From Afipia sp. (GTDB taxonomy: Bacteria; Pseudomonadota; Alphaproteobacteria; Rhizobiales; Xanthobacteraceae): 13,801 nt of DNA. The DNA lies in NCBI GenBank assembly GCA_020056155.1, contig JAGVII010000179.1, positions 1 to 13,801 of the forward strand, in the 5' to 3' direction. The notes under the pieces were generated by a model. The model saw nothing but the letters and a program-made list of their open reading frames with translations. It ran no database searches and was not told the DNA's origin. Below are positions 1,843 through 11,615 of the stretch, in pieces. Made by a program: the position numbers and the translations under genes. The stretch's first letter is position 1, and every line of letters starts with the position of its first letter.

Positions 1843-1919
1843 TCGCCCGCACATAGGCACTGCCAAACTCCGCATTAATGCTGACCTCGCTACCGTCGCG
1901 GCAGGGGTCAAACACGACA

Positions 1920-4019
1920 ATGCCGCAAGACAGCACCTTTGTGTTTTTCTACCACCACGTTCTTGTCGCCATGGCCGGAGCCGTGTGCCTGTTCGGAACC
2001 TGGGTCGGAATGCGGCATTTCGCGCGCGCCCGGGCGACCGAAGGGCTGACACGTTACGGCTGGCTCTTTATGGCGTCGGTCGGCACCGGCGCAGCGCTGT
2101 GGGCCTCGACGTTCATTTCTATTCTGGCATTGGCTCCAATGCAGGCGAGCGCCTTCGAACTCGGGCCGATTGCTGGGGCGTTGCTGATTGCGATCGTCGC
2201 CTGCCTTCTCGGATTTGAAATCGGCAGCCGTCACACCCCCCATCTCGCGCCCGAGCTTGGCGGTCTTGTGATGGGCATCGGCATTCTGATGATGCATTAT
2301 GTCGGGCTTAATGCCTGGCGAACCGGCGGGACCATTTCATGGAACTCGTATGGGCTGGCTGCAACTCTCGTTCTTGGCCTCGGGCTTAGTGCCCTTTCCG
2401 TGAATCGCGCTAACCGCCCGGTGACGCGTTACTGCCGTCATGGCGCCGCCATCGTGATGACATTCATGATCTGCGTGATGCATTACACGCTGAGCTACTC
2501 GTTGAGTATCGCGCCGGATAGCTCGGTCGTTCTGTCGCCCGAGCTAATGCCCGCGACAATGCTTGGAGCCGGCGTCGTGGGCGCCGTCCTCCTGGTCATG
2601 GGCAGCGGCTTCTCCTCCTATATCATCGACCTGCGCTCGCGCACGGAATCCGCCGACCGCATCCATCAACTCTCATTCAATGACACGATGACGGGATTGC
2701 CGAACCGCATCGCATTTAACGAGAGGCTGGCGTTCGATGTCGCGGATGCCCACGAGCAGGCGCACAAGGTCGCGGCGTTTTCGATCGATCTCGACGGGTT
2801 CAAGGATGTCAACGACGTGTTCGGACACAGCGCTGGCGATCTGTTGCTGATCGACGTTGCCGAGCGCATGCGCCAGTCGATCGGACCCGGAGAATTCCTG
2901 GCGCGGCAAAGCGGCGATGAATTTCTGGGACTGCGCGTCTCGGGTAACCACCCGGAAGATGCCGAGGATTTTGCGAGACGGATCGCGCAGGTTTTTCAAA
3001 ACCCGTTTCAGGTCCACGGTCAACCGGTCACCCTGACCGCGTCCATCGGTTTTGCGATCTTCCCGACCGATACGCCGGAGCGCGATCAACTTCTCAGCAA
3101 TGCCAAGCTTGCGATGCATCGGGGTAAGAGCAGGCAACGCGGGACGATCTCCAAGTATCACCGGGAAATGGACGATGCAGCGCGGACGCGGCGTGCGCTT
3201 GCCCGTGACCTGCAGACCGCCGTTGAGCGCGACGAACTCGAATTGCACTATCAGCTGCAGACGTCGCTTTCCGACGGCGCTATCTGCGGGGCAGAGGCCC
3301 TCATGCGCTGGCGGCATCCGGTTCGCGGACTGGTGTCTCCGGCGGAGTTCATTCCGCTCGCCGAGGAAACCGAAGCGATTATTCCGATGGGCGAATGGGC
3401 TCTGCAAACGGCCTGCCGCGACGCGGCCGACGGCAAAATTCCCGGTACGGTGGCCGTCAACCTGTCGCCCATTCAATTCAGCCGGGAGGATCTGGCTGAA
3501 CGGATATGGAGCATTCTGCTGGAAACCGGATTGTCGCCATCACGACTCGAGATCGAGGTAACCGAGTCGACGCTGATGACCGACACCAATCACGGCCTGC
3601 GTATCCTGCGTAAGCTGAAATCGATGGGCATGTCCGTGGCGCTCGACGATTTCGGCACCGGTTACTCATCGCTGGCGATGCTGCATTCCTTTCCGTTCGA
3701 CAAGATCAAACTTGACCAATCGTTCGTGAAACGTCTGCCGAGCGATGCTGCCGCAGCGGCAATCGTTCGCACCGTGCTGGCGCTTGGGAAGAGCCTTGGC
3801 ATTCCAGTTCTCGCGGAAGGCATAGAAACAGCCGCGCAGTGGCGTTTCCTTGCAAACGAAGGCTGCGAAAAGGGTCAGGGGTATTTGTTCGCGAGACCTG
3901 TACCGCTGGGCAAACTGCCCGAGGCAATACGCGGCGCTCAGTCCGTCGATGCAAATCAGCCGTCTGCCGCCAGTTCGCATCAGGCCGCAGGCTATGTTCA
4001 GCTTTCTCTGGCTGTCTGA
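1920..4019 (+). CDS. Membrane MHYT-GGDEF-EAL protein, cyclic-di-GMP turnover
   Basis: 699 residues from the ATG at 1920, which has AGGGG (1903-1907) ahead of it. An in-frame ATG at 1878 would add 14 residues but lacks a ribosome site. Residues about 1-235 are a multi-helix membrane MHYT sensor: MHYVGL (125-130) and MHYT (187-190) are clear, while the first repeat is degenerate (WASTFI at 61-66). The GGDEF domain (about 250-415) carries SGDEF at 331-335 with an intact nucleotide-site aspartate in SIDLDGF; no RxxD inhibitory site sits just before it. The EAL domain (about 425-675) keeps the known metal and catalytic residues: E459 (EAL), N514 (NLSP), E546 (EVTE), D576-D577 (DDFGTGYSS), K597, E633 and Q653. 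Phosphodiesterase activity is therefore likely; cyclase activity is possible because SGDEF is a tolerated variant. It is a single gene, convergent with the polysaccharide gene. Confidence 0.95.
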   Translation: MPQDSTFVFFYHHVLVAMAGAVCLFGTWVGMRHFARARATEGLTRYGWLFMASVGTGAALWASTFISILALAPMQASAFELGPIAGALLIAIVACLLGFEIGSRHTPHLAPELGGLVMGIGILMMHYVGLNAWRTGGTISWNSYGLAATLVLGLGLSALSVNRANRPVTRYCRHGAAIVMTFMICVMHYTLSYSLSIAPDSSVVLSPELMPATMLGAGVVGAVLLVMGSGFSSYIIDLRSRTESADRIHQLSFNDTMTGLPNRIAFNERLAFDVADAHEQAHKVAAFSIDLDGFKDVNDVFGHSAGDLLLIDVAERMRQSIGPGEFLARQSGDEFLGLRVSGNHPEDAEDFARRIAQVFQNPFQVHGQPVTLTASIGFAIFPTDTPERDQLLSNAKLAMHRGKSRQRGTISKYHREMDDAARTRRALARDLQTAVERDELELHYQLQTSLSDGAICGAEALMRWRHPVRGLVSPAEFIPLAEETEAIIPMGEWALQTACRDAADGKIPGTVAVNLSPIQFSREDLAERIWSILLETGLSPSRLEIEVTESTLMTDTNHGLRILRKLKSMGMSVALDDFGTGYSSLAMLHSFPFDKIKLDQSFVKRLPSDAAAAAIVRTVLALGKSLGIPVLAEGIETAAQWRFLANEGCEKGQGYLFARPVPLGKLPEAIRGAQSVDANQPSAASSHQAAGYVQLSLAV

Positions 4020-4026
4020 CGCAGCG

Positions 4027-5445
4027 TCAATGACCCGGCGTGTCCAGTCCGGACGCAACCGCCTTTTCCTCGTCCATCAATTCCAGCAGCCACGCCAGGC
4101 TGACGCCGAGGCCCAACCCGATCAGCAAGCTGGTCAGCAACACACCTAAGGGGAATGTTCCGCTTGGCTCGAGCGGTGCTGTCGCCCGGCTGAGTATCCG
4201 GGCAATCGAACCGTCTGATCCAGATTGTTCGCCAAGGTCGCGGGACCGGGCCAGCACAGCCTGATAGGCAACCCGGCTCGCCTCCACGTCACGTTCGAGC
4301 TCCCTGAGACGTGTGACCGTTTCGTTGGACTTCATCATATCCTGTTTGGACGTCTCAAGGCGGCTTTTGAGCTGCGTGACCGACGCGCGCGCACGCTCCA
4401 GCTCGCTTGTGGCTGACTGAATAGCTCCCTGGATCGATTGATCAAGCAGCCGTTTCGCTTCGGTAGCCCGCATCCGCGCGATGACGAGATCGGGATGACG
4501 GGGGCCAAGAGTCTGGGCGAGGTCGAGTTCAAGCCGCCTTGCCGCTGCGTAGCGGTTTCCGAGCACCCTGGTACTTCCTCCGCGAGCCGCATCGGGAATG
4601 CCTCCAGCTTCGAGAGTCTTTCTGGCACGCTGAAGCAGGTTGAGCGTCGATCGCAGACCGGCGACTTTGGCCTCGGCAGCGCTCATCTGGCCGGAAATCT
4701 CATTTACCTGCTTCTCGGCATCGGATGGACCGTTCGCGACAGCCGTCAGGTTCTCGCGGCGAAATATTTCATAGCGCTGTTCTGCGTTCCGCACGCGGGA
4801 CTGAAGTGTTTCCAGCCGTGGACCGAGAGACGCGGCAGCGCTCGGTGATACTCCCTTGCGCGCCTGCGCCTGTTCCTCGACGTACCCATCCATCACGGCA
4901 TTGGCGACACGAGCCGACGTCTCGCGGTCCGGTGTGACGACCTTGACGTCGACGGTATGAGAGCCGGGATTGCGCACGATGCTGACGGCGCGGTTGAGTT
5001 GACGCAGCGCCATCGCATGCCGATCGACGGCAGGAGCAAGCCCGACGCCGGTCAGAAGCGCGGAGAGAATGCCCTTCGATTTGCCGCCAAAGAACGGATC
5101 GGTTTCGAGTTTCTCCTGCGCGATGACCCGGTCGTAAACACTGCGCGACGTCATGACATAGATCTGGTTTTCAACGCCTGTCTTGTCGGCGTCACCCGCT
5201 ACGGCCGGAACCGCGCCAGCACTAGCCTGAGTTCCCGGCAGATCGAGCAAAATCCTGCCCAATGCCGCATATTTAGGAGCCGACAGAAGAATCCAGGCAA
5301 GGCAAATACCCGCGCATGCAAGCGTCACGGCCGCAATGAATGCTGCCCTGCGGCGCAACATCGCCGCAATGCCATCCACATCCAGGACGGGCGCCTGAAT
5401 GCGCGGCAGGTACGCATCGTGCCTGTCGCTTTCGGAAATCGCCAT
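4027..5445 (-). CDS. Wzz/GumC-type polysaccharide co-polymerase without kinase domain
   Basis: Inner-membrane protein that governs chain length or export of surface polysaccharide. From the ATG at 5445 it has 472 residues: an N-terminal Wzz segment (VDGIAAMLRRRAAF), a first membrane helix at about 35-55, a long periplasmic part rich in heptad-like helix (about 190-390), a GNVR-type stretch (RELERDVEASRVAYQAVLAR), the proline-containing ATAPLEPSGTFP and a second helix at about 431-456. It ends 16 residues after that helix, so the BY-kinase domain of fused GumC/ExoP proteins is absent and no separate kinase is in the window. An in-frame ATG at 5511 is less likely: it has no ribosome site, whereas AGGG stands 8 bases before 5445, and the palindrome at 5513-5533 would abut the upstream start. 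No glycosyltransferase gene is adjacent, so the polymer is unknown. Confidence 0.88.
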   Translation of the reverse strand: MAISESDRHDAYLPRIQAPVLDVDGIAAMLRRRAAFIAAVTLACAGICLAWILLSAPKYAALGRILLDLPGTQASAGAVPAVAGDADKTGVENQIYVMTSRSVYDRVIAQEKLETDPFFGGKSKGILSALLTGVGLAPAVDRHAMALRQLNRAVSIVRNPGSHTVDVKVVTPDRETSARVANAVMDGYVEEQAQARKGVSPSAAASLGPRLETLQSRVRNAEQRYEIFRRENLTAVANGPSDAEKQVNEISGQMSAAEAKVAGLRSTLNLLQRARKTLEAGGIPDAARGGSTRVLGNRYAAARRLELDLAQTLGPRHPDLVIARMRATEAKRLLDQSIQGAIQSATSELERARASVTQLKSRLETSKQDMMKSNETVTRLRELERDVEASRVAYQAVLARSRDLGEQSGSDGSIARILSRATAPLEPSGTFPLGVLLTSLLIGLGLGVSLAWLLELMDEEKAVASGLDTPGH

Positions 5446-5608: not shown

Positions 5609-6445
5609 TCAATCCGCGAGTTCGATAAAGATCGGCTGGTGGTCGGACGCCGAGGTCTTGGTATCCACCTCGACATGGCGAATCCGGTCACTCAAATCTT
5701 CGCTCGCGAATATGAAATCGCGGCAGTCCGGACCATCCGACCACTGTACGCGGTCATGCAGCCCGCACGTCAGTGCGTGAGGCTGTCCGGGACGACACAT
5801 CGACCAGGCATCGCGATAGTTCAATCCCGGACGAACTGATTCATGGACCAGCCCGTGCTGCGGGTCCGAGACGTCGAAATTGAAATCGCCGCAAAGCAGG
5901 CTCGATGCCGCCAGCGTCTGGGCCGCGTAGGGCTCGTTGTGTGTGCCGCTTGCCTTGGCGCTCGCCGAGGCCTCTTCCTGAAGATCGAGCAATCGCATGA
6001 TCTGCGCTTTGCGCTGATCGGCCGAATGATACTCGAGATGAGTGTTGACGACGCGCAGCGCGCCGAATGCAGCCTGAACCGTCACATCGAGCGCGTGACG
6101 CCGCATGCTGCGGACAGAACCGGCTCCCGGCCACGGCAGCAGATGATTGGAAATCTGCATCACCGGCAAGCGCGACAATGTCATGTTTCCGAACCGGTGC
6201 ATTCGTCCACCGCCATCGATGGCTTCAATGGCCGGACGGAACACCGGCACATATCCGGGCAGCAGCGACGCCAGTTGCGCGCTCTGGTCGGTGCCACCGT
6301 CAAGGCTGGAAAAATTGTCGGAGACTTCCTGAAAACAGTAGACGTCCGCGTCAGCCATCTCCCTCGCGACCGAGACGATGCGCGCAAGATCGGTCACACC
6401 ATCGCAGCCCTTGCCGCACTGAATATTCCAGGTCAGCAACCGCAT
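5609..6445 (-). CDS. Endonuclease/exonuclease/phosphatase (DNase I-fold) family phosphoesterase, last gene of the Ugp-type operon
   Basis: 278-residue metal-dependent phosphoesterase. The frame continues far upstream, but the start at 6445 gives the family's N-terminus (MRLLTWNIQCGKG) and overlaps the permease stop as TGATG. All the usual EEP-fold active-site motifs can be seen: N7 (TWNIQ), E40 (CFQE), H136 (NTHLEYHS), D187/N189 (GDFNFD), D243 (CRDFIF) and D268/H269 (SDHQP). There is no signal peptide, so it should act in the cytoplasm. The family hydrolyses DNA, phosphoinositides, sphingomyelin or other phosphodiesters, so sequence alone does not fix the substrate. Tight coupling to a glycerol-3-phosphate-type transporter and a GlpR-like regulator suggests that it cleaves an imported phosphodiester, in the place UgpQ takes in the E. 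coli ugp operon; that is inference. Confidence 0.92.
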   Translation of the reverse strand: MRLLTWNIQCGKGCDGVTDLARIVSVAREMADADVYCFQEVSDNFSSLDGGTDQSAQLASLLPGYVPVFRPAIEAIDGGGRMHRFGNMTLSRLPVMQISNHLLPWPGAGSVRSMRRHALDVTVQAAFGALRVVNTHLEYHSADQRKAQIMRLLDLQEEASASAKASGTHNEPYAAQTLAASSLLCGDFNFDVSDPQHGLVHESVRPGLNYRDAWSMCRPGQPHALTCGLHDRVQWSDGPDCRDFIFASEDLSDRIRHVEVDTKTSASDHQPIFIELAD

Positions 6446-7254
6446 CAGCGAATGCCTGCGCGCATGAAGGACTGCACGAACTGCCGCTGGAACAGCAGGA
6501 ACGCGATCAGCAACGGCCCCATCGTCATCACCGTCGCAGCCGTAATGATCGACCAGTCCACGCCGGTCTCGGGAGCACCGAAGACGGCAAGGCCGACGGT
6601 GAGCGGCCGGCTTTCCACCGAATTCGTCACGATCAAAGGCCACAGGAAGTTGTTCCAGTGATAGCTGACCGAGACAAGGCCAAAGGCCACGTAAGTCGGC
6701 CGCGCCAGCGGAACGTAGACTTTCCAGAGGATTTGCAGCGGCCCCGCCCCTTCGACACGAGCGGCTTCCACCAGTTCCTGCGGCACGCTCTTGAATGTCT
6801 GCCGCAACAGGAAGATGCCGAATGCGCTTGCGAGGTATGGCAGCGCAATCGCGGGGATCGTATCGAGCAACCCGAGCTTGCCGATCATGCGATAGTTCTC
6901 GACGATCAGCACGTCCGGCATAATCATCAACTGCAACAGCACCAGCGCGAACGCGATCCCGCTTCCACGGAACGTGAACCGCGCGAAAGCGTAGGCCGCG
7001 AGTGTCGAAAGAATGAGCTGCCCGATCAGGATAATGACGACCAGCACGACCGTGTTGATGTAATACCGCCCGAACGGCGCCTGATTCCACGCGCGCGCGA
7101 AATTTTCCAATGTCCACGGCGCGGACAGACTGAACGACGTCGCATAGGCGGCCGGATGCAGGGCGCTCCAGAATGCGTACGCCAGCGGCGCGAGCCACAG
7201 CAGCGCCAGCAGCCACGCGGCAATCGCCTCAAGGGGATGCGTGCGGCCGTTCAT
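6445..7254 (-). CDS. ABC transporter permease, UgpE/MalG type
   Basis: 269-residue inner-membrane permease of a CUT1-family importer. It shows about six hydrophobic helices (first at about 10-30, then 68-90, 100-118, 133-150, 188-205 and a last one near 243-258) and the cytoplasmic EAA loop EAARVEGA at 163-170, followed by LWKVYVPLARP, which contacts the ATPase. Its ATG overlaps the stop of the preceding permease as ATGA, and its stop overlaps the start of the phosphoesterase as TGATG, both signs of translational coupling. It pairs with the upstream UgpA/MalF-type permease to form the channel. Sugar and glycerol-phosphate transporters of this family have similar permeases, so the substrate call rests on the binding protein and the regulator. 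Confidence 0.94.
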   Translation of the reverse strand: MNGRTHPLEAIAAWLLALLWLAPLAYAFWSALHPAAYATSFSLSAPWTLENFARAWNQAPFGRYYINTVVLVVIILIGQLILSTLAAYAFARFTFRGSGIAFALVLLQLMIMPDVLIVENYRMIGKLGLLDTIPAIALPYLASAFGIFLLRQTFKSVPQELVEAARVEGAGPLQILWKVYVPLARPTYVAFGLVSVSYHWNNFLWPLIVTNSVESRPLTVGLAVFGAPETGVDWSIITAATVMTMGPLLIAFLLFQRQFVQSFMRAGIR

Positions 7255-8171
7255 TGATAATGTATCCTGCGATCGAGGTAGCCGAACTTGATCAATGCGA
7301 CCGTGCTGAGCAGGATCAGAAGCACCACCGTCAGTGTGGCCGCGTAGGCAGAATCCTGGAACGTGAAGGCAACTTCATAGATGTAATACAGCAGCAGCGT
7401 ACTGGCATTGTTCGGACCGCCCTTGGTCATGATGACGAGATGGTCAACGAGCTTGAACGAATTGATCACCGCGTTGATCGTCACAAATAACGTCGTCGGC
7501 ATCAGCAAGGGAAAGGTAATCCGCCGGAATGTGTACCAGCGGCTTGCGCCTTCGACCGCAGCCGCCTCCTCCAGATCGGGTGACAGTTGCTGAAGCGCGG
7601 CCAGATAGAAGATCATGAAGAATCCGGCCTCTTTCCAGACCACCATCACAACCAGACAGTTCATCACCGTGCTCGGGTCGCCCAGCCAGTTCCAGCCCGC
7701 CAGCCCGAAAACCCCGCGCAGCTGATCGAGCAGCCCATAATCCGGCGTGTAGAAAAACAGCCAGATGTTCGCGACCGCGATCATCGGCAACACGGTCGGC
7801 GTGAAAAAGGCAAGCCGCAGAAAGCCGCGGCCGCGTATGTTGCGGTTAACCCAGATCGCCATCAGCAAGGCCAGGGCAATCGACGTCGGAATGGTCCCCA
7901 GCGCAAACCAGAAATTATTGACCAGCGCCTTCCAGAAAATCGGGTCGGCAGCCATCGCATGATAGCTCTCCAGGCCGACGAAAACTTCCGCGCCGTTCCG
8001 GCGCGTGATGAAGAACGAATGCCGGATGGTCGCCAGGATCGGGTAATGCGTGAACGCGATCAACAGCACCGCCGCAGGCAATAGCAGCAACCACGCGTTC
8101 ACGGCATTCCACCACGCATGCGACTTCGGCCTGCGCGCGGCAACTGGCATTGTGGCGGCTTGATCTGTCAT
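7251..8171 (-). CDS. ABC transporter permease, UgpA/MalF type
   Basis: 306-residue inner-membrane permease, partner of the UgpE-type subunit. The first helix is at about 25-45, then helices near 83-107, 118-141, 168-192, 224-240 and 275-298. The EAA loop EEAAAVEGA (201-209) followed by RRITFPLLMP marks the ATPase contact. The start is uncertain: ATG at 8171 (chosen), GTG at 8204, which would sit 12 bases after the binding-protein stop and add 11 residues, or ATG at 8150. None has a strong ribosome site. The 3' end overlaps the next permease by the ATGA arrangement. Second product class after the binding protein in the operon, as in many CUT1 systems. Confidence 0.92.
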   Translation of the reverse strand: MTDQAATMPVAARRPKSHAWWNAVNAWLLLLPAAVLLIAFTHYPILATIRHSFFITRRNGAEVFVGLESYHAMAADPIFWKALVNNFWFALGTIPTSIALALLMAIWVNRNIRGRGFLRLAFFTPTVLPMIAVANIWLFFYTPDYGLLDQLRGVFGLAGWNWLGDPSTVMNCLVVMVVWKEAGFFMIFYLAALQQLSPDLEEAAAVEGASRWYTFRRITFPLLMPTTLFVTINAVINSFKLVDHLVIMTKGGPNNASTLLLYYIYEVAFTFQDSAYAATLTVVLLILLSTVALIKFGYLDRRIHYQ

Positions 8172-8216
8172 CGGACGATGGGCCGGATGGCGGCGAACCG
8201 CCACCCGGCGTTTTCT

Positions 8217-9494
8217 TTACTTGTACGCGCGCAGCACGCGGTCTGCCTGCTGTTGCGCCGCCGCAAGGGCTTCCGACGGCTTCTGCGAGCCCGTCACCGC
8301 CGCCTGAACAGCATCACCGACGAACTTGTAGATGCGTCCGTTTTCGTGAACGGACAGTTCTGGTACCGCGTGTTCAAGCTGATCACGCGCGACGAGGGCA
8401 GCTGGAAAGCCCTTCGCATAGGCTTCCATCGCCGGGGTCTTGTACGCCGCCGGAGACACCGCGACATAACCCGTCTTGATGCTCCATTCGGCTGCACGCT
8501 CTGGCGCGGTCATCCACTGAATGAACTTCACGGCCGCCTTCTGCTGCTCGGGTGACGCGCTCTTGAAGATGTAGAAGCTGCCGCCACCGGTCGGCGACCC
8601 GCGGCGCTCCTTGGCAGGCAGCATGGCGACGCCGAAGTTGAACTTCGCGCCATCCTTCACCGCGGTCAGATTGCCCGTGGTGTGCCACATCATCGCGGTC
8701 TTGCCTTCGAGGAAGTCGGTGCGCAGCGTTGCCCAGTCGACGCTGCCCGTGGGCATCACCGCGTGCTTTCGCGACAGATCCACCCAGTAATCCAGCGCTC
8801 CGACGGTCTTCGGCGCGGTGAGATAGACTTCGTTGCCCGGCTCGTTCATCAGCTTCTGACCGTTCTCGATCGCCAGTGCCTGCAGCATCCAGTAGGCGTA
8901 TCCAGTGATGGGGATCTCAACGCCCCAGCGGGTGGTGTTGCCCGAAGCGTCCTTCTTGACGAGCTTCTTGCCCATCTCGGTCATTTCGTCCCAGGTCGCG
9001 GGCGCCTTCTCCGGATCAAGGCCCGCTTCCTTGAAAGCATCCTTGTTCCAGTACAGCACAATCGTGGAACGCTGGAACGGAATGCTCCAGGTCTTGCCGT
9101 CGATCTGCCCGTTCGCCATGAACGCGGGATAGAACTCCTTGAACCACGACTTGTCGGCGACGAGACTATCCATCGGCACGATGGCGTTCTCATCCATCAG
9201 CGTGAAAACGTCGGTCGAGAGCAACACAGACAACTGCGGCGGCTGGCCGCCCTTCATCGCCGTCATCGCCTTGGTCATCGTGTCGGTGTAGTTGCCGGCA
9301 TACACCGCCGTCACCTTGATGTCCGCGTTTTCCTTCTGGAAACGCGCCACCATATCATCGATGATCTTGGTCACCGGACCACCGACCGCGACCGGATAAT
9401 ACATCGTGAGATCAACCGCAGCCGCAGGCCGCGGGCTGAAAGACATAGCCGCAAGCGCGGCCGCCGCAAGCATCGTTCGTCCAAGGAATTTCAT
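8217..9494 (-). CDS. Extracellular solute-binding protein, UgpB-like
   Basis: 425-residue periplasmic binding protein of the ABC importer. A Sec signal peptide covers about residues 1-26 (MKFLGRTMLAAAALAAMSFS, cut probably after PAAA, before VDLTMYY). The mature part shows family-1 binding-protein marks that I recognise from E. coli UgpB: VYAGNYTDTM near the N-terminus, IPFQRSTIVLYWNKDAFKEA with GLDPEKAPATWDEM after it, FNFGVAMLPA, GGGSFYIF, and AAEWSIKTGYVAVSP. This supports glycerol-3-phosphate or a glycerophosphodiester as ligand, although paralogues with other ligands exist. The start is well set by AAAGGGGAG (complement of 9501-9509). It is the second gene of the operon, 47 bases after the ATPase gene, and is probably the most highly translated. 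Confidence 0.94.
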   Translation of the reverse strand: MKFLGRTMLAAAALAAMSFSPRPAAAVDLTMYYPVAVGGPVTKIIDDMVARFQKENADIKVTAVYAGNYTDTMTKAMTAMKGGQPPQLSVLLSTDVFTLMDENAIVPMDSLVADKSWFKEFYPAFMANGQIDGKTWSIPFQRSTIVLYWNKDAFKEAGLDPEKAPATWDEMTEMGKKLVKKDASGNTTRWGVEIPITGYAYWMLQALAIENGQKLMNEPGNEVYLTAPKTVGALDYWVDLSRKHAVMPTGSVDWATLRTDFLEGKTAMMWHTTGNLTAVKDGAKFNFGVAMLPAKERRGSPTGGGSFYIFKSASPEQQKAAVKFIQWMTAPERAAEWSIKTGYVAVSPAAYKTPAMEAYAKGFPAALVARDQLEHAVPELSVHENGRIYKFVGDAVQAAVTGSQKPSEALAAAQQQADRVLRAYK

Positions 9495-9541
9495 ATCATT
9501 CTCCCCTTTGTGACTGATCAGTTGCCGATTCCGTTACGGTC

Positions 9542-10558
9542 TCAGACAACAGCAACTCTCTTCGCCTCACCGGCGACGGATTCCATCCGCCGCTCCGATG
9601 TCTTGTCGAACTGGTGTTCGAAACCTGCATCCCACGCGAGCCGGATGTCATCGCCCGGCAGTGACTTGCTGAAACCGTCCTGCCGCACTGAGACCGGCTG
9701 TCCATCGACTTCGCAAAGAATGATGCTGTCGGCTCCGAGATGCTCGACCGCCTTTACGCGCGCCGGATGACCGTCATGCGACACGACGCGAATATGTTCC
9801 GGACGAACGCCGAGCAACCGGTCGCCTCGCGCGATCAGGTTCATGGGCGGCGTTCCGATGAAGCGCGCCGTGAAAGCGGTTGCAGGCCGATTGTAGAGCT
9901 CTTCCGGCGTGCCATTCTGTTCGATGCGGCCGTCACGCATCAGCACTACACGATCCGCCATGGTCATGGCTTCGGTCTGATCGTGAGTCACATAAACCAT
10001 CGTCATTCCGAGACGCTGCTGAAGCGAGCGAATTTCGGTACGCATTTCGTGACGAAGCTTGGCATCGAGATTGGAAAGCGGCTCGTCCATCAGGCAGACT
10101 TTGGCCTCGGCGATAATGGCGCGGCCGAGTGCCACGCGCTGACGCTGGCCACCGGATAGTTGCGAGGGTTTGCGCTCCAGCAGATGGCCGAGACCGACGA
10201 TGTCCGCGACGCGCTTGAGCCGCGCATCACGCTCCGCGCGCGACACGCGGCGCACGCGCAGACCAAATACGATGTTTTCCCCGACGCTCAGATGGGGAAA
10301 CAGGGCGTACGACTGAAACACCATCGAGATCTTGCGCAGAGCCGGCGTCAGATTCGTGACGTCCGTCCCGCCGATTGTAATGGTGCCGCCGTCCGGCTGC
10401 TCAAGGCCGGCGATCAACCGCAACGTTGTGGATTTGCCGCAACCCGACGGCCCCAGAAGAACCAGCAGCGAGCCCTGCTCTGCCGTGAGACTGACGTCGT
10501 CAACGGCGCGCATCGGGCCCCAGTTCTTGGAGATATGATCGAGTGTGATCGCCGACAT
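9542..10558 (-). CDS. ABC transporter ATP-binding protein, UgpC/MalK type
   Basis: 338-residue ATPase that powers the importer from the cytoplasmic side. It shows Walker A GPSGCGKST (36-44), Q-loop Q82 (VFQSYALFPH), signature LSGGQ (134-138), Walker B VCLMDEP (154-160), the D-loop SNLDAKLR and switch H192 (VTHDQTEAMT). It continues into a C-terminal TOBE region beginning about RFIGTPPMNLI (232-242), a stretch characteristic of UgpC/MalK. The frame is open to 10657, but the family N-terminus (MSAITLDHISKNWG) sets the ATG at 10558. First gene of the operon, divergent from the GlpR-like regulator. The C-terminal domain is a little shorter than in typical 350-370 residue members. Confidence 0.94.
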   Translation of the reverse strand: MSAITLDHISKNWGPMRAVDDVSLTAEQGSLLVLLGPSGCGKSTTLRLIAGLEQPDGGTITIGGTDVTNLTPALRKISMVFQSYALFPHLSVGENIVFGLRVRRVSRAERDARLKRVADIVGLGHLLERKPSQLSGGQRQRVALGRAIIAEAKVCLMDEPLSNLDAKLRHEMRTEIRSLQQRLGMTMVYVTHDQTEAMTMADRVVLMRDGRIEQNGTPEELYNRPATAFTARFIGTPPMNLIARGDRLLGVRPEHIRVVSHDGHPARVKAVEHLGADSIILCEVDGQPVSVRQDGFSKSLPGDDIRLAWDAGFEHQFDKTSERRMESVAGEAKRVAVV

Positions 10559-10733
10559 GACCGCCCCAGTTATGACGTTTGCAATCGCAGAAACCCTGGA
10601 GGGCGTCCCGATCCGTCTCTCAGTCCCCGGCCCGGCGGACAAGGCGAAGGACGGCATCGGCCAGCTCCGGCTCTGCCATTACAGACGCCGCAATCCGCCG
10701 AAGAGACCCGTCTGGCGGCGGGATGCGTGTTTT

Positions 10734-10739
10734 ATTATG
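10734..10739 (-). promoter_or_regulatory. Candidate -10 box for the transporter operon
   Basis: On the minus strand this reads CATAAT (five of six to TATAAT) inside an AT-rich patch. No good -35 box stands 16-18 bases upstream, so activity is uncertain. Its upstream edge overlaps the palindrome at 10738-10751, which would suit repression. The implied leader before the ATPase start would be about 165 bases. Confidence 0.35.
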
Positions 10740-10751
10740 TTCATATGAACA
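10738..10751. promoter_or_regulatory. Perfect palindrome TGTTCATATGAACA, probable operator of the GlpR-like regulator
   Basis: TGTTCAT and ATGAACA are exact inverted copies, in the 268-base gap between the divergent operon and regulator genes. E. coli GlpR operators, as I remember them, have arms of the type ATGTTCG and CGAACAT; the arms here (ATGTTCA and TGAACA) are close but nearer together. A second imperfect copy, ACATGAAACA, starts 21 bases after ATATGAACA, about two helical turns, and TTCGAA stands at 10792-10797. The rest of 10559-10826 shows nothing I can name. Confidence 0.55.
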
Positions 10752-10826
10752 CAGTATATGCGCACATGAAACAGCAATTGCTCGTGTACCGTTCGAATGA
10801 TAAGTTTTTGTGACAAACGGGGATCT

Positions 10827-11615
10827 ATGCTCAAAATAGTCAGTCAACGACACGCCCGTATCCTGGAGATCGTCCGTGAAGCGGGCTTCGCATCGATCGA
10901 ATATCTCGCGAGACATTTCGAGGTGACGCAACAAACGATCCGCCGGATCGTGAACCAACTGTGCGATCAGGGTTTGTTGCGCCGCGTCCATGGCGGCGTA
11001 AGCCTTCCTGTCCAGAATCCAAATCTCGCCTATGGAAGCCGGCAGGGGCTCAATCCCGATGCCAAGCGGCGTATCGGTCAGGCCGTTTCCGATTTCATTC
11101 CTGACGGCGCATCATTGATGATCGGGCTCGGCACGACGCCTGAATATGTGGCGCAGGCACTGTCTCATCGTCAGAATTTGCGGATCATCACCAACAATCT
11201 GAACGTGGCCGCGGCCTTCGCGCGCAATCCCGATGTGGAAATCACCATGGCGGGCGGTACGCTTCGCCCTTTTGACCGGGACATCATCGGCGACACTGCC
11301 GTTCGTTTCTTTTCCGACTTCAAGGCGGATATCGGAATTTTCGGCGTCGGCGGCATTGATGACGACGGCGCGCTACTCGATTTTTATGTTGGCGAGGTTC
11401 AGGCGCGTCAGGCCATCGCCGCCAATTGCCGGACGTCCCTGCTGGTTGCGGATGAAAGCAAATTTGGCCGCAACGCAACGGTGCGCGGCGGCCATTTCGG
11501 GGATTGCCATTACTTTTTCACGGACAAAGCGATCCCGGAGAGTTTCCGCCACCTCGCGGACCAATATGCAGAGAGAATTCGTGTTGCGCGGGATGGCCGC
11601 GTACAGGCCGCATAG
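10827..11615 (+). CDS. DeoR-family transcriptional regulator, GlpR-like
   Basis: 262-residue repressor-type regulator. The ATG at 10827 gives the family N-terminus (MLKIVSQRHARILEIV); an in-frame ATG at 10797 would add ten unlikely residues. Residues 1-58 form the DeoR winged helix (SIEYLARHFEVTQQTIRR), ending in LRRVHGGV. The usual aspartate of TIRRDL is isoleucine here (I41). Residues about 75-250 are the DeoR sugar-phosphate sensor and resemble E. coli GlpR segment by segment: GLGTTPEYVAQAL, LRIITNNLNVA, AGGTLRPFDRDIIGD, FGVGGIDDDGALLDF and ADESKFGRNA. GlpR senses glycerol-3-phosphate, so this protein may sense the product of the imported compound. Its divergent position over a shared palindrome suggests that it controls the transporter operon and itself. 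Confidence 0.93.
   Translation: MLKIVSQRHARILEIVREAGFASIEYLARHFEVTQQTIRRIVNQLCDQGLLRRVHGGVSLPVQNPNLAYGSRQGLNPDAKRRIGQAVSDFIPDGASLMIGLGTTPEYVAQALSHRQNLRIITNNLNVAAAFARNPDVEITMAGGTLRPFDRDIIGDTAVRFFSDFKADIGIFGVGGIDDDGALLDFYVGEVQARQAIAANCRTSLLVADESKFGRNATVRGGHFGDCHYFFTDKAIPESFRHLADQYAERIRVARDGRVQAA

Follow-up and report, generated by a model that had tools for sequence, protein, structure and literature searches.

We analyzed a window of 13,801 nucleotides (nt; the whole stretch above, from a genome assembly of Afipia sp., a soil-type bacterium; 4.56 Mb in 909 contigs, 84.55% complete), which carries an operon for a Ugp-like ATP-binding cassette (ABC) importer, ending in a gene of the endonuclease/exonuclease/phosphatase (EEP) superfamily and accompanied by a divergent regulator gene. 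The following features were localized (scores refer to Pfam and NCBIfam models):

5609..6445, minus strand: putative EEP-fold phosphodiesterase gene (278 amino acids; PF03372, 48.6 bits against a cut-off of 24.5)
6445..7254, minus strand: UgpE-like CUT1 permease (PF00528; NF008210 UgpE, 137 bits, below the cut-off of 297)
7251..8171, minus strand: UgpA-like CUT1 permease (PF00528; NF007852 UgpA, 117 bits, below the cut-off of 335)
8217..9494, minus strand: UgpB-related periplasmic binding protein (UgpB2; signature PFQRST; PF13416/PF01547; NF008211 UgpB, 182.3 bits, below the cut-off of 411)
9542..10558, minus strand: UgpC-like ATPase with a TOBE domain (PF00005, PF08402; NF008653 UgpC, 400.6 bits, cut-off 432)
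10738..10751: palindrome TGTTCATATGAACA, candidate operator for the divergent regulator, approx. 75 nt before glpR and approx. 180 nt before ugpC
10827..11615, plus strand: DeoR/GlpR-type regulator, divergent (PF00455 and PF08220; NF008154, 239.4 bits, below the cut-off of 331)

The five genes of the minus strand follow the order ugpC-B-A-E-EEP, with an overlap of 4 nt (ATGA) between ugpA and ugpE and of 1 nt (TGATG) between ugpE and the EEP gene. The original prediction had described these five genes and the divergent regulator, the last three genes of the operon being coupled by overlapping stop and start codons; all six are where it placed them and the coupling is present, which confirms the observation. 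For all four transport subunits the best NCBIfam models were Ugp models. The regulator gene has an alternative ATG start at 10797, 30 nt upstream of 10827.

A search of genome contigs with the EEP protein alone revealed 35 loci (L002-L036; loci and genomes are cited by our L and G numbers), a set that, being selected by its EEP genes, says nothing on how often the operon lacks an EEP. The complete ugpC-B-A-E-EEP order was found in 30 of them, which marks the gene set as more than a chance arrangement; a neighbourhood search of this kind had been proposed as a check. Among the other five, L029 has a broken UgpE-EEP pair, while L009, L032, L035 and L036 are without this transporter. The closest named relatives of the window's EEP belong to Afipia, then to Bradyrhizobium.

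The distribution of the two components was followed in 61 genomes of relatives (the window's own included), where the EEP was detected in 21 (E ≤ 0.001) and the binding protein likewise in 21 (E ≤ 1e-100). Within the window's genus both are present in the same 15 of 29 genomes. Outside the genus, G042 and G047 carry both, and G054 has the EEP gene with two permease genes on a short contig; G038, G040 and G059 gave distant EEP matches only, and G029, G050, G055 and G060 the binding protein only.

In a sample of 387 genomes of the class (386 besides the window's), EEP relatives at E ≤ 1e-46 (36-49% identity) occurred in 11 genomes besides the window's; this cut was chosen after a gap had been seen (next match 3e-33) and coincides with the clade of the EEP tree to which the window belongs. 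All 11 also contained the transporter subfamily (binding protein of at least 44% identity), compared with 36 of the 386 genomes overall (hypergeometric probability 9.8e-13, without correction for kinship). The EEP gene is directly beside the transporter in eight of the 11; it lies approx. 7 kb from ugpB in G212, and on a different contig in G228 and G307. At locus L187 (4758-12612), MacB-like and outer-membrane efflux genes stand between the EEP gene and the transporter, which looks like an operon divided by an insertion.

The regulator contains HTH_DeoR and DeoRC domains above cut-off (52.5 and 144.3 bits), which places it in the DeoR/GlpR family, and falls short of the GlpR equivalog model NF008154. 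The palindrome TGTTCATATGAACA of the intergenic region is perfect, with 0 expected in shuffles. In 20 of 23 Afipia/Bradyrhizobium-type loci in which glpR adjoins the operon the sequence TGTTC-N4-GAACA is present, and TTCATATGAA is retained in the remaining three; neither occurs in five loci without glpR (L008, L013, L014, L023, L026). These domains, and an operator conserved together with glpR in relatives, uphold the predicted GlpR-type regulator divergent to the operon. The half-site resembles that of the E. coli GlpR operator. At ≤1 mismatch the TGTTCATATGAACA site is single-copy in the 84.55%-complete genome, which speaks against a genome-wide regulon with this operator there, and the operator was not found near the two glpD-like genes that the genome carries elsewhere (together with one GDPD match, on contig C389). 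Since another GlpR homologue adjoins glpD in L224 and scores 246 bits with the GlpR model, against 239 for the window's (cut-off 331), the window regulator is probably a dedicated paralogue with its own palindrome. In L097, L098 and L125, whose operons have a more distant GlpR, a different palindrome (ATGTAA...TTACAT) is located upstream of ugpC and may be the operator of that clade.

Control had been predicted to be of the carbon type and not of the phosphate type. The first half of this proposal is supported by the GlpR-type regulator and the conserved operator; for the second, no match to the PhoB-box consensus was found near the operon at ≤3 mismatches, which does not exclude PhoB control. 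The single match in the window, at 2435, is at chance level.

The EEP protein starts with MRLLTWNIQ and has no signal peptide recognizable by eye. Its residues N7, E40, H136, D187, N189, D243, D268 and H269 are invariant in 47 aligned relatives and include the catalytic positions, and the PF03372 match, the conserved residues and the fold place it in the EEP superfamily. It does not reach the exonuclease III (xth) equivalog (27.5 bits, cut-off 99.05). A tree of 57 chosen EEP rows, in which the Afipia/Bradyrhizobium-type loci are represented by the window, L009 and six others, splits into two clades. In the window's clade (27 rows) 21 EEP genes are beside this transporter, five are not, and L009 is beside a different binding protein. 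The second clade (30 rows) includes five EEPs beside a ugp operon (L102-L105, L120) and two beside another CUT1 transporter. All five binding proteins of these ugp operons exceed the UgpB cut-off, and in L104 the genes ugpB-A-E-C-EEP-glpD follow one another on one strand, the EEP gene thus occupying, directly after ugpC, the position where E. coli has ugpQ. A Phyllobacterium plasmid (L201, 769-7577) carries in a row genes for a MurR/RpiR regulator, another CUT1 importer, an EEP and a HAD-IA phosphatase.

The ligand contacts of Phaeobacter UgpB, with the roles of the residues, are given in PMC12718374 as Y64, E88, S143, W188, W191, S266, G303, Y342 and R393, and each of the nine has its expected letter in our alignment. 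The window's binding protein keeps Y64, S143, W188, G303 and Y342 and has Thr for S266; the glycerol contacts are lost (E88 to Ser, W191 to Glu, R393 to Tyr). In 31 subfamily rows (the window included, L203 left out) there is no variation at Y64, S143, G303 and Y342, and position 266 holds Ser or Thr, so that the phosphate-side residues Y64, S143, S/T266 and Y342 are kept in every aligned row. E88 and W191 are lost in all 31, position 188 carries Trp or Tyr, and at position 393 some rows have Arg and the rest Tyr, Thr or Lys. The pocket pattern of L203, from an E. coli IncF plasmid, is like that of the subfamily. The motif PFQRST is present in 50 of the 51 subfamily rows of the tree set (the exception being L203); the five rows of true UgpB proteins encoded next to EEP genes have PFNSST or PFNSSS and retain all nine contacts.

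The binding protein, judged by its sequence, is therefore a separate subfamily and not a true UgpB: it has neither the UgpB score nor the full glycerol-phosphate site of the E. coli type. It likely binds phosphate, and its binding of glycerol is uncertain. The earlier designation "Ugp-type" consequently fits the architecture of the importer and does not establish its ligand.

To determine what follows ugpE, we surveyed the neighbourhoods of orthologous binding proteins by tblastn with EEP and calcineurin-like queries, and by Pfam scans of many downstream genes; the census leaves out the genes downstream in G029, G050, G055 and G060. In the 38 operons of the class sample (the window and both G191 operons included; the G307 binding protein, in two contig-end pieces, L186 and L226, counted once), the slot is occupied by an EEP in nine and by a calcineurin-like phosphoesterase (PF00149) in four (L161, L183, L184, L188), and in 25 tblastn found neither after ugpE. 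Ten of these 25 were without a Pfam scan or were scanned only at a later gene (L166, L168, L173, L175, L178, L180, L181, L186/L226 and the immediate opposite-strand genes of L162 and L176). The genes scanned in EEP-free operons belong to mixed families (carbonic anhydrase, dehydrogenases, MFS, EamA, histidine kinase, AIM24, TPR, RTX-repeat, RecQ, amidohydrolase, or no match) and were set aside as unrelated neighbours. In L169 a PhoX phosphatase gene lies 125 nt downstream of an EEP-free operon.

Further calcineurin-like occupants were identified on a Nitratireductor plasmid (L200), on a Pantoea plasmid (L192) and in L213-L215, from a sample of the phylum (396 genomes, of which 25 gave a binding-protein match at 1e-90). 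Among solved structures, the L161 and L184 enzymes match those of GpdQ best (2dxl/2dxn/2zo9/2zoa/3d03; 147 and 93 bits), with Rv0805 second (94 and 80 bits). PMC6205647 and PMC4528799 assign 2zo9 and 2dxn, respectively, to GpdQ of Enterobacter aerogenes, a glycerophosphodiesterase. The enzymes of L161, L183, L184, L188 and L200 share 28-34% identity over at least 198 residues with the GpdQ-like protein of L203, which itself matches GpdQ over its full length (604 bits). A second calcineurin-like family is made up of L192 and, at 54-74% identity to it, L213-L215. Finally, in L218 (5749-6567) and L219 (8376-9194) a xylose-isomerase-like TIM barrel is encoded 16-19 nt downstream of ugpE; it is weakly similar to the phosphodiesterase CbiR (below cut-off) and also to epimerases. 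In the binding-protein tree of 51 rows, slot content changes eight times for EEP and five times for calcineurin-like enzymes, gain and loss being indistinguishable and the long rows L203, L188 and L192 unsure. A raw tally over mixed, partly redundant loci, which is not a rate, gave 41 loci with an EEP, seven with a calcineurin-like enzyme and 29 with neither (L009 and L029, having no binding-protein match, were dropped).

Some operons also encode possible downstream steps. GlpD follows the EEP gene in L094, L095, L125 and L104; in L103 its gene lies at the opposite end of the ugp operon. Of these, the GlpD proteins of L095 and L125 were scanned, and both exceed the NCBIfam cut-off. HAD-IIB phosphatase genes follow in L034, L094, L095, L101 and L125; their products resemble sugar-phosphate and phosphoglycolate phosphatases, below cut-offs, and the HAD of L034 had no PDB match at 1e-6.

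Taken together, these data make it fairly probable that the operon encodes a CUT1 importer of a phosphodiester, most likely a glycerophosphodiester-like one (for example a fragment of a membrane lipid), coupled to a cytoplasmic EEP phosphodiesterase under the divergent GlpR-type regulator. The substrate, once taken up, would be cleaved in the cytoplasm by the EEP to glycerol-3-phosphate, or to glycerol and a phosphorylated partner, and the products would serve carbon and phosphorus use. The regulator would act at TGTTCATATGAACA, probably by repression that a phosphorylated product relieves. The original prediction had an EEP replacing UgpQ in a Ugp-like system. The linkage, the GpdQ-type enzymes in the same slot, the GlpD and HAD neighbours and the EEPs beside true ugp operons favour this replacement; the prediction needs correction as to the binding protein. 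Its central inference (EEP for UgpQ, Ugp-like transport, GlpR-type control) is now better supported, above all by the GpdQ swap; the unusual head group that it suggested, a glycerophospho-sugar or glycerophospho-inositol, is a guess.

Several observations weigh against a glycerophosphodiester importer with a dedicated EEP. In addition to the lost glycerol contacts, the 25 of 38 operons with neither enzyme directly downstream indicate that the transporter can do without such an enzyme. The window and the majority of EEP operons lack GlpD and HAD. Among NCBIfam models, the L161, L183, L184 and L188 enzymes score best with the 2',3'-cyclic nucleotide phosphodiesterase SpdA (below its cut-off), and the Pantoea-type L192 enzyme has no GpdQ match, its best solved relative being the dimetal phosphatase 2nxf. 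The binding protein beside the close EEP of L009 is a different one (UgpB model 365 bits, below the cut-off of 411). By the criteria used, 23 of the 30 rows of the second EEP clade show no linkage to a transporter, and of the EEP genes beside true ugp operons those of L102, L103 and L105 are convergent and that of L120 is separated by a gap of approx. 1.9 kb. A fold search with the EEP returned mixed neighbours, with no clue to the substrate.

The best surviving alternative, which we regard as unlikely, is that another class of phosphodiester is imported, e.g. an agrocinopine- or xanthosan-like sugar phosphodiester, which the EEP would cleave to a sugar and a sugar phosphate, with the HAD removing the phosphate in some relatives. 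A pocket with its phosphate contacts kept and glycerol contacts lost is compatible with this, as are the additional Arg of PFQRST in 50 of 51 rows, the resemblance (below cut-offs) of the HAD-IIB proteins beside EEPs to sugar-phosphate and phosphoglycolate phosphatases, and the presence of the EEP sugar phosphatase Bt3783 among the nearest folds of the window's EEP. Scavenging of sugar phosphodiesters is moreover known with another diesterase fold (PMC12807533). On the other side, the GlpR-type regulator and the GlpD of several operons point to glycerol-3-phosphate, and GpdQ-like enzymes occupy the EEP slot.

CUT1 transporters are mainly specific for sugars, and the 25 orthologous operons of the class sample without either diesterase would suit a plain sugar or polyol importer with the EEP gene as a mere passenger. 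We consider this improbable in view of the co-inheritance, the 1-nt overlap, the other phosphoesterases in the slot and the retained phosphate-side residues. The structure set 7c0f-7c1b is, we presume, that of the dinucleotide-binding protein of Thermus. Least probable of all is an importer of dinucleotides or cyclic nucleotides with a nuclease-fold EEP as the cleaving enzyme: EEP members are in many cases nucleases, dinucleotide binding is described for a Thermus relative of UgpB (as cited in PMC12718374), the swapped-in enzymes score best with the cyclic-nucleotide phosphodiesterase models SpdA/CpdA (below cut-off) and a NUDIX gene follows the EEP gene in Bradyrhizobium sp. 195, but GlpD and GlpR recur, EEP relatives adjoin true UgpB, the exonuclease III score is far below its cut-off, and no nucleoside or base catabolic gene was noticed in the operons, for which no dedicated search was made.

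An importer of glycerophosphodiester-like substrates with its own phosphodiesterase would share the five-part logic of E. coli ugpBAECQ (binding protein, two permeases, ATPase, intracellular phosphodiesterase). It differs in its order (C-B-A-E-enzyme), in an EEP in place of the GDPD-fold UgpQ, in the divergent GlpR-type regulator with its own palindrome, and in the incomplete glycerol site; phosphate depletion induces the E. coli ugp operon (PMC5438359). The GpdQ operon of L203 (2252-7224) likewise includes a glycerophosphodiesterase gene, and its binding protein belongs to the same wider family (37% identity to the window's, 26% to true UgpB). Unlike the window, it has a calcineurin-like enzyme and the order permease-permease-GpdQ-ATPase-binding protein, with no GlpR annotated in the fetched stretch. 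Among plasmid records matching the binding protein at 1e-60, 195 of 256 are from Escherichia, one of which was examined. L104 resembles the window in its EEP, at the ugpQ position, and departs from it in the GlpD that follows, in a true UgpB above cut-off with the nine ligand residues, and in an EEP of the second clade. In Rhizobium leguminosarum, glpR-glpSTPQUV also places a GlpR-type repressor beside an ABC importer; there, unlike in the window, the ligand is glycerol and glpD/glpK are attached (PMC7912956). The window's genome has a glpR-glpD stretch elsewhere, with two ATPase-like matches (L224).

In the window itself, the operon is adjoined by cyclic-di-GMP and polysaccharide genes, encoding an MHYT-GGDEF-EAL protein (1878-4019) and a Wzz/EpsF-like chain-length protein (4027-5442).

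In the literature searched, whose coverage leaves out most subscription journals, no EEP enzyme in a ugp-type operon was described. We put forward, with somewhat less than even confidence, that the transporter-linked EEP clade represents a further, undescribed family of intracellular phosphodiesterases of the glycerophosphodiester type, and that the PFQRST importer has a modular enzyme slot across Proteobacteria, filled by an EEP, by two calcineurin-like families and possibly by the TIM barrel of L218 and L219. Genomes have been screened for glycerophosphodiester use via GDPD-family (PF03009) genes (PMC5438359). If the proposal is true, such screens overlook the EEP- and GpdQ-based systems of Bradyrhizobium, Afipia and further Proteobacteria, and genes annotated only as "endonuclease/exonuclease/phosphatase family protein" would gain a testable function. 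The recurrence of unrelated phosphoesterases behind one importer would represent a clean case of non-homologous replacement.

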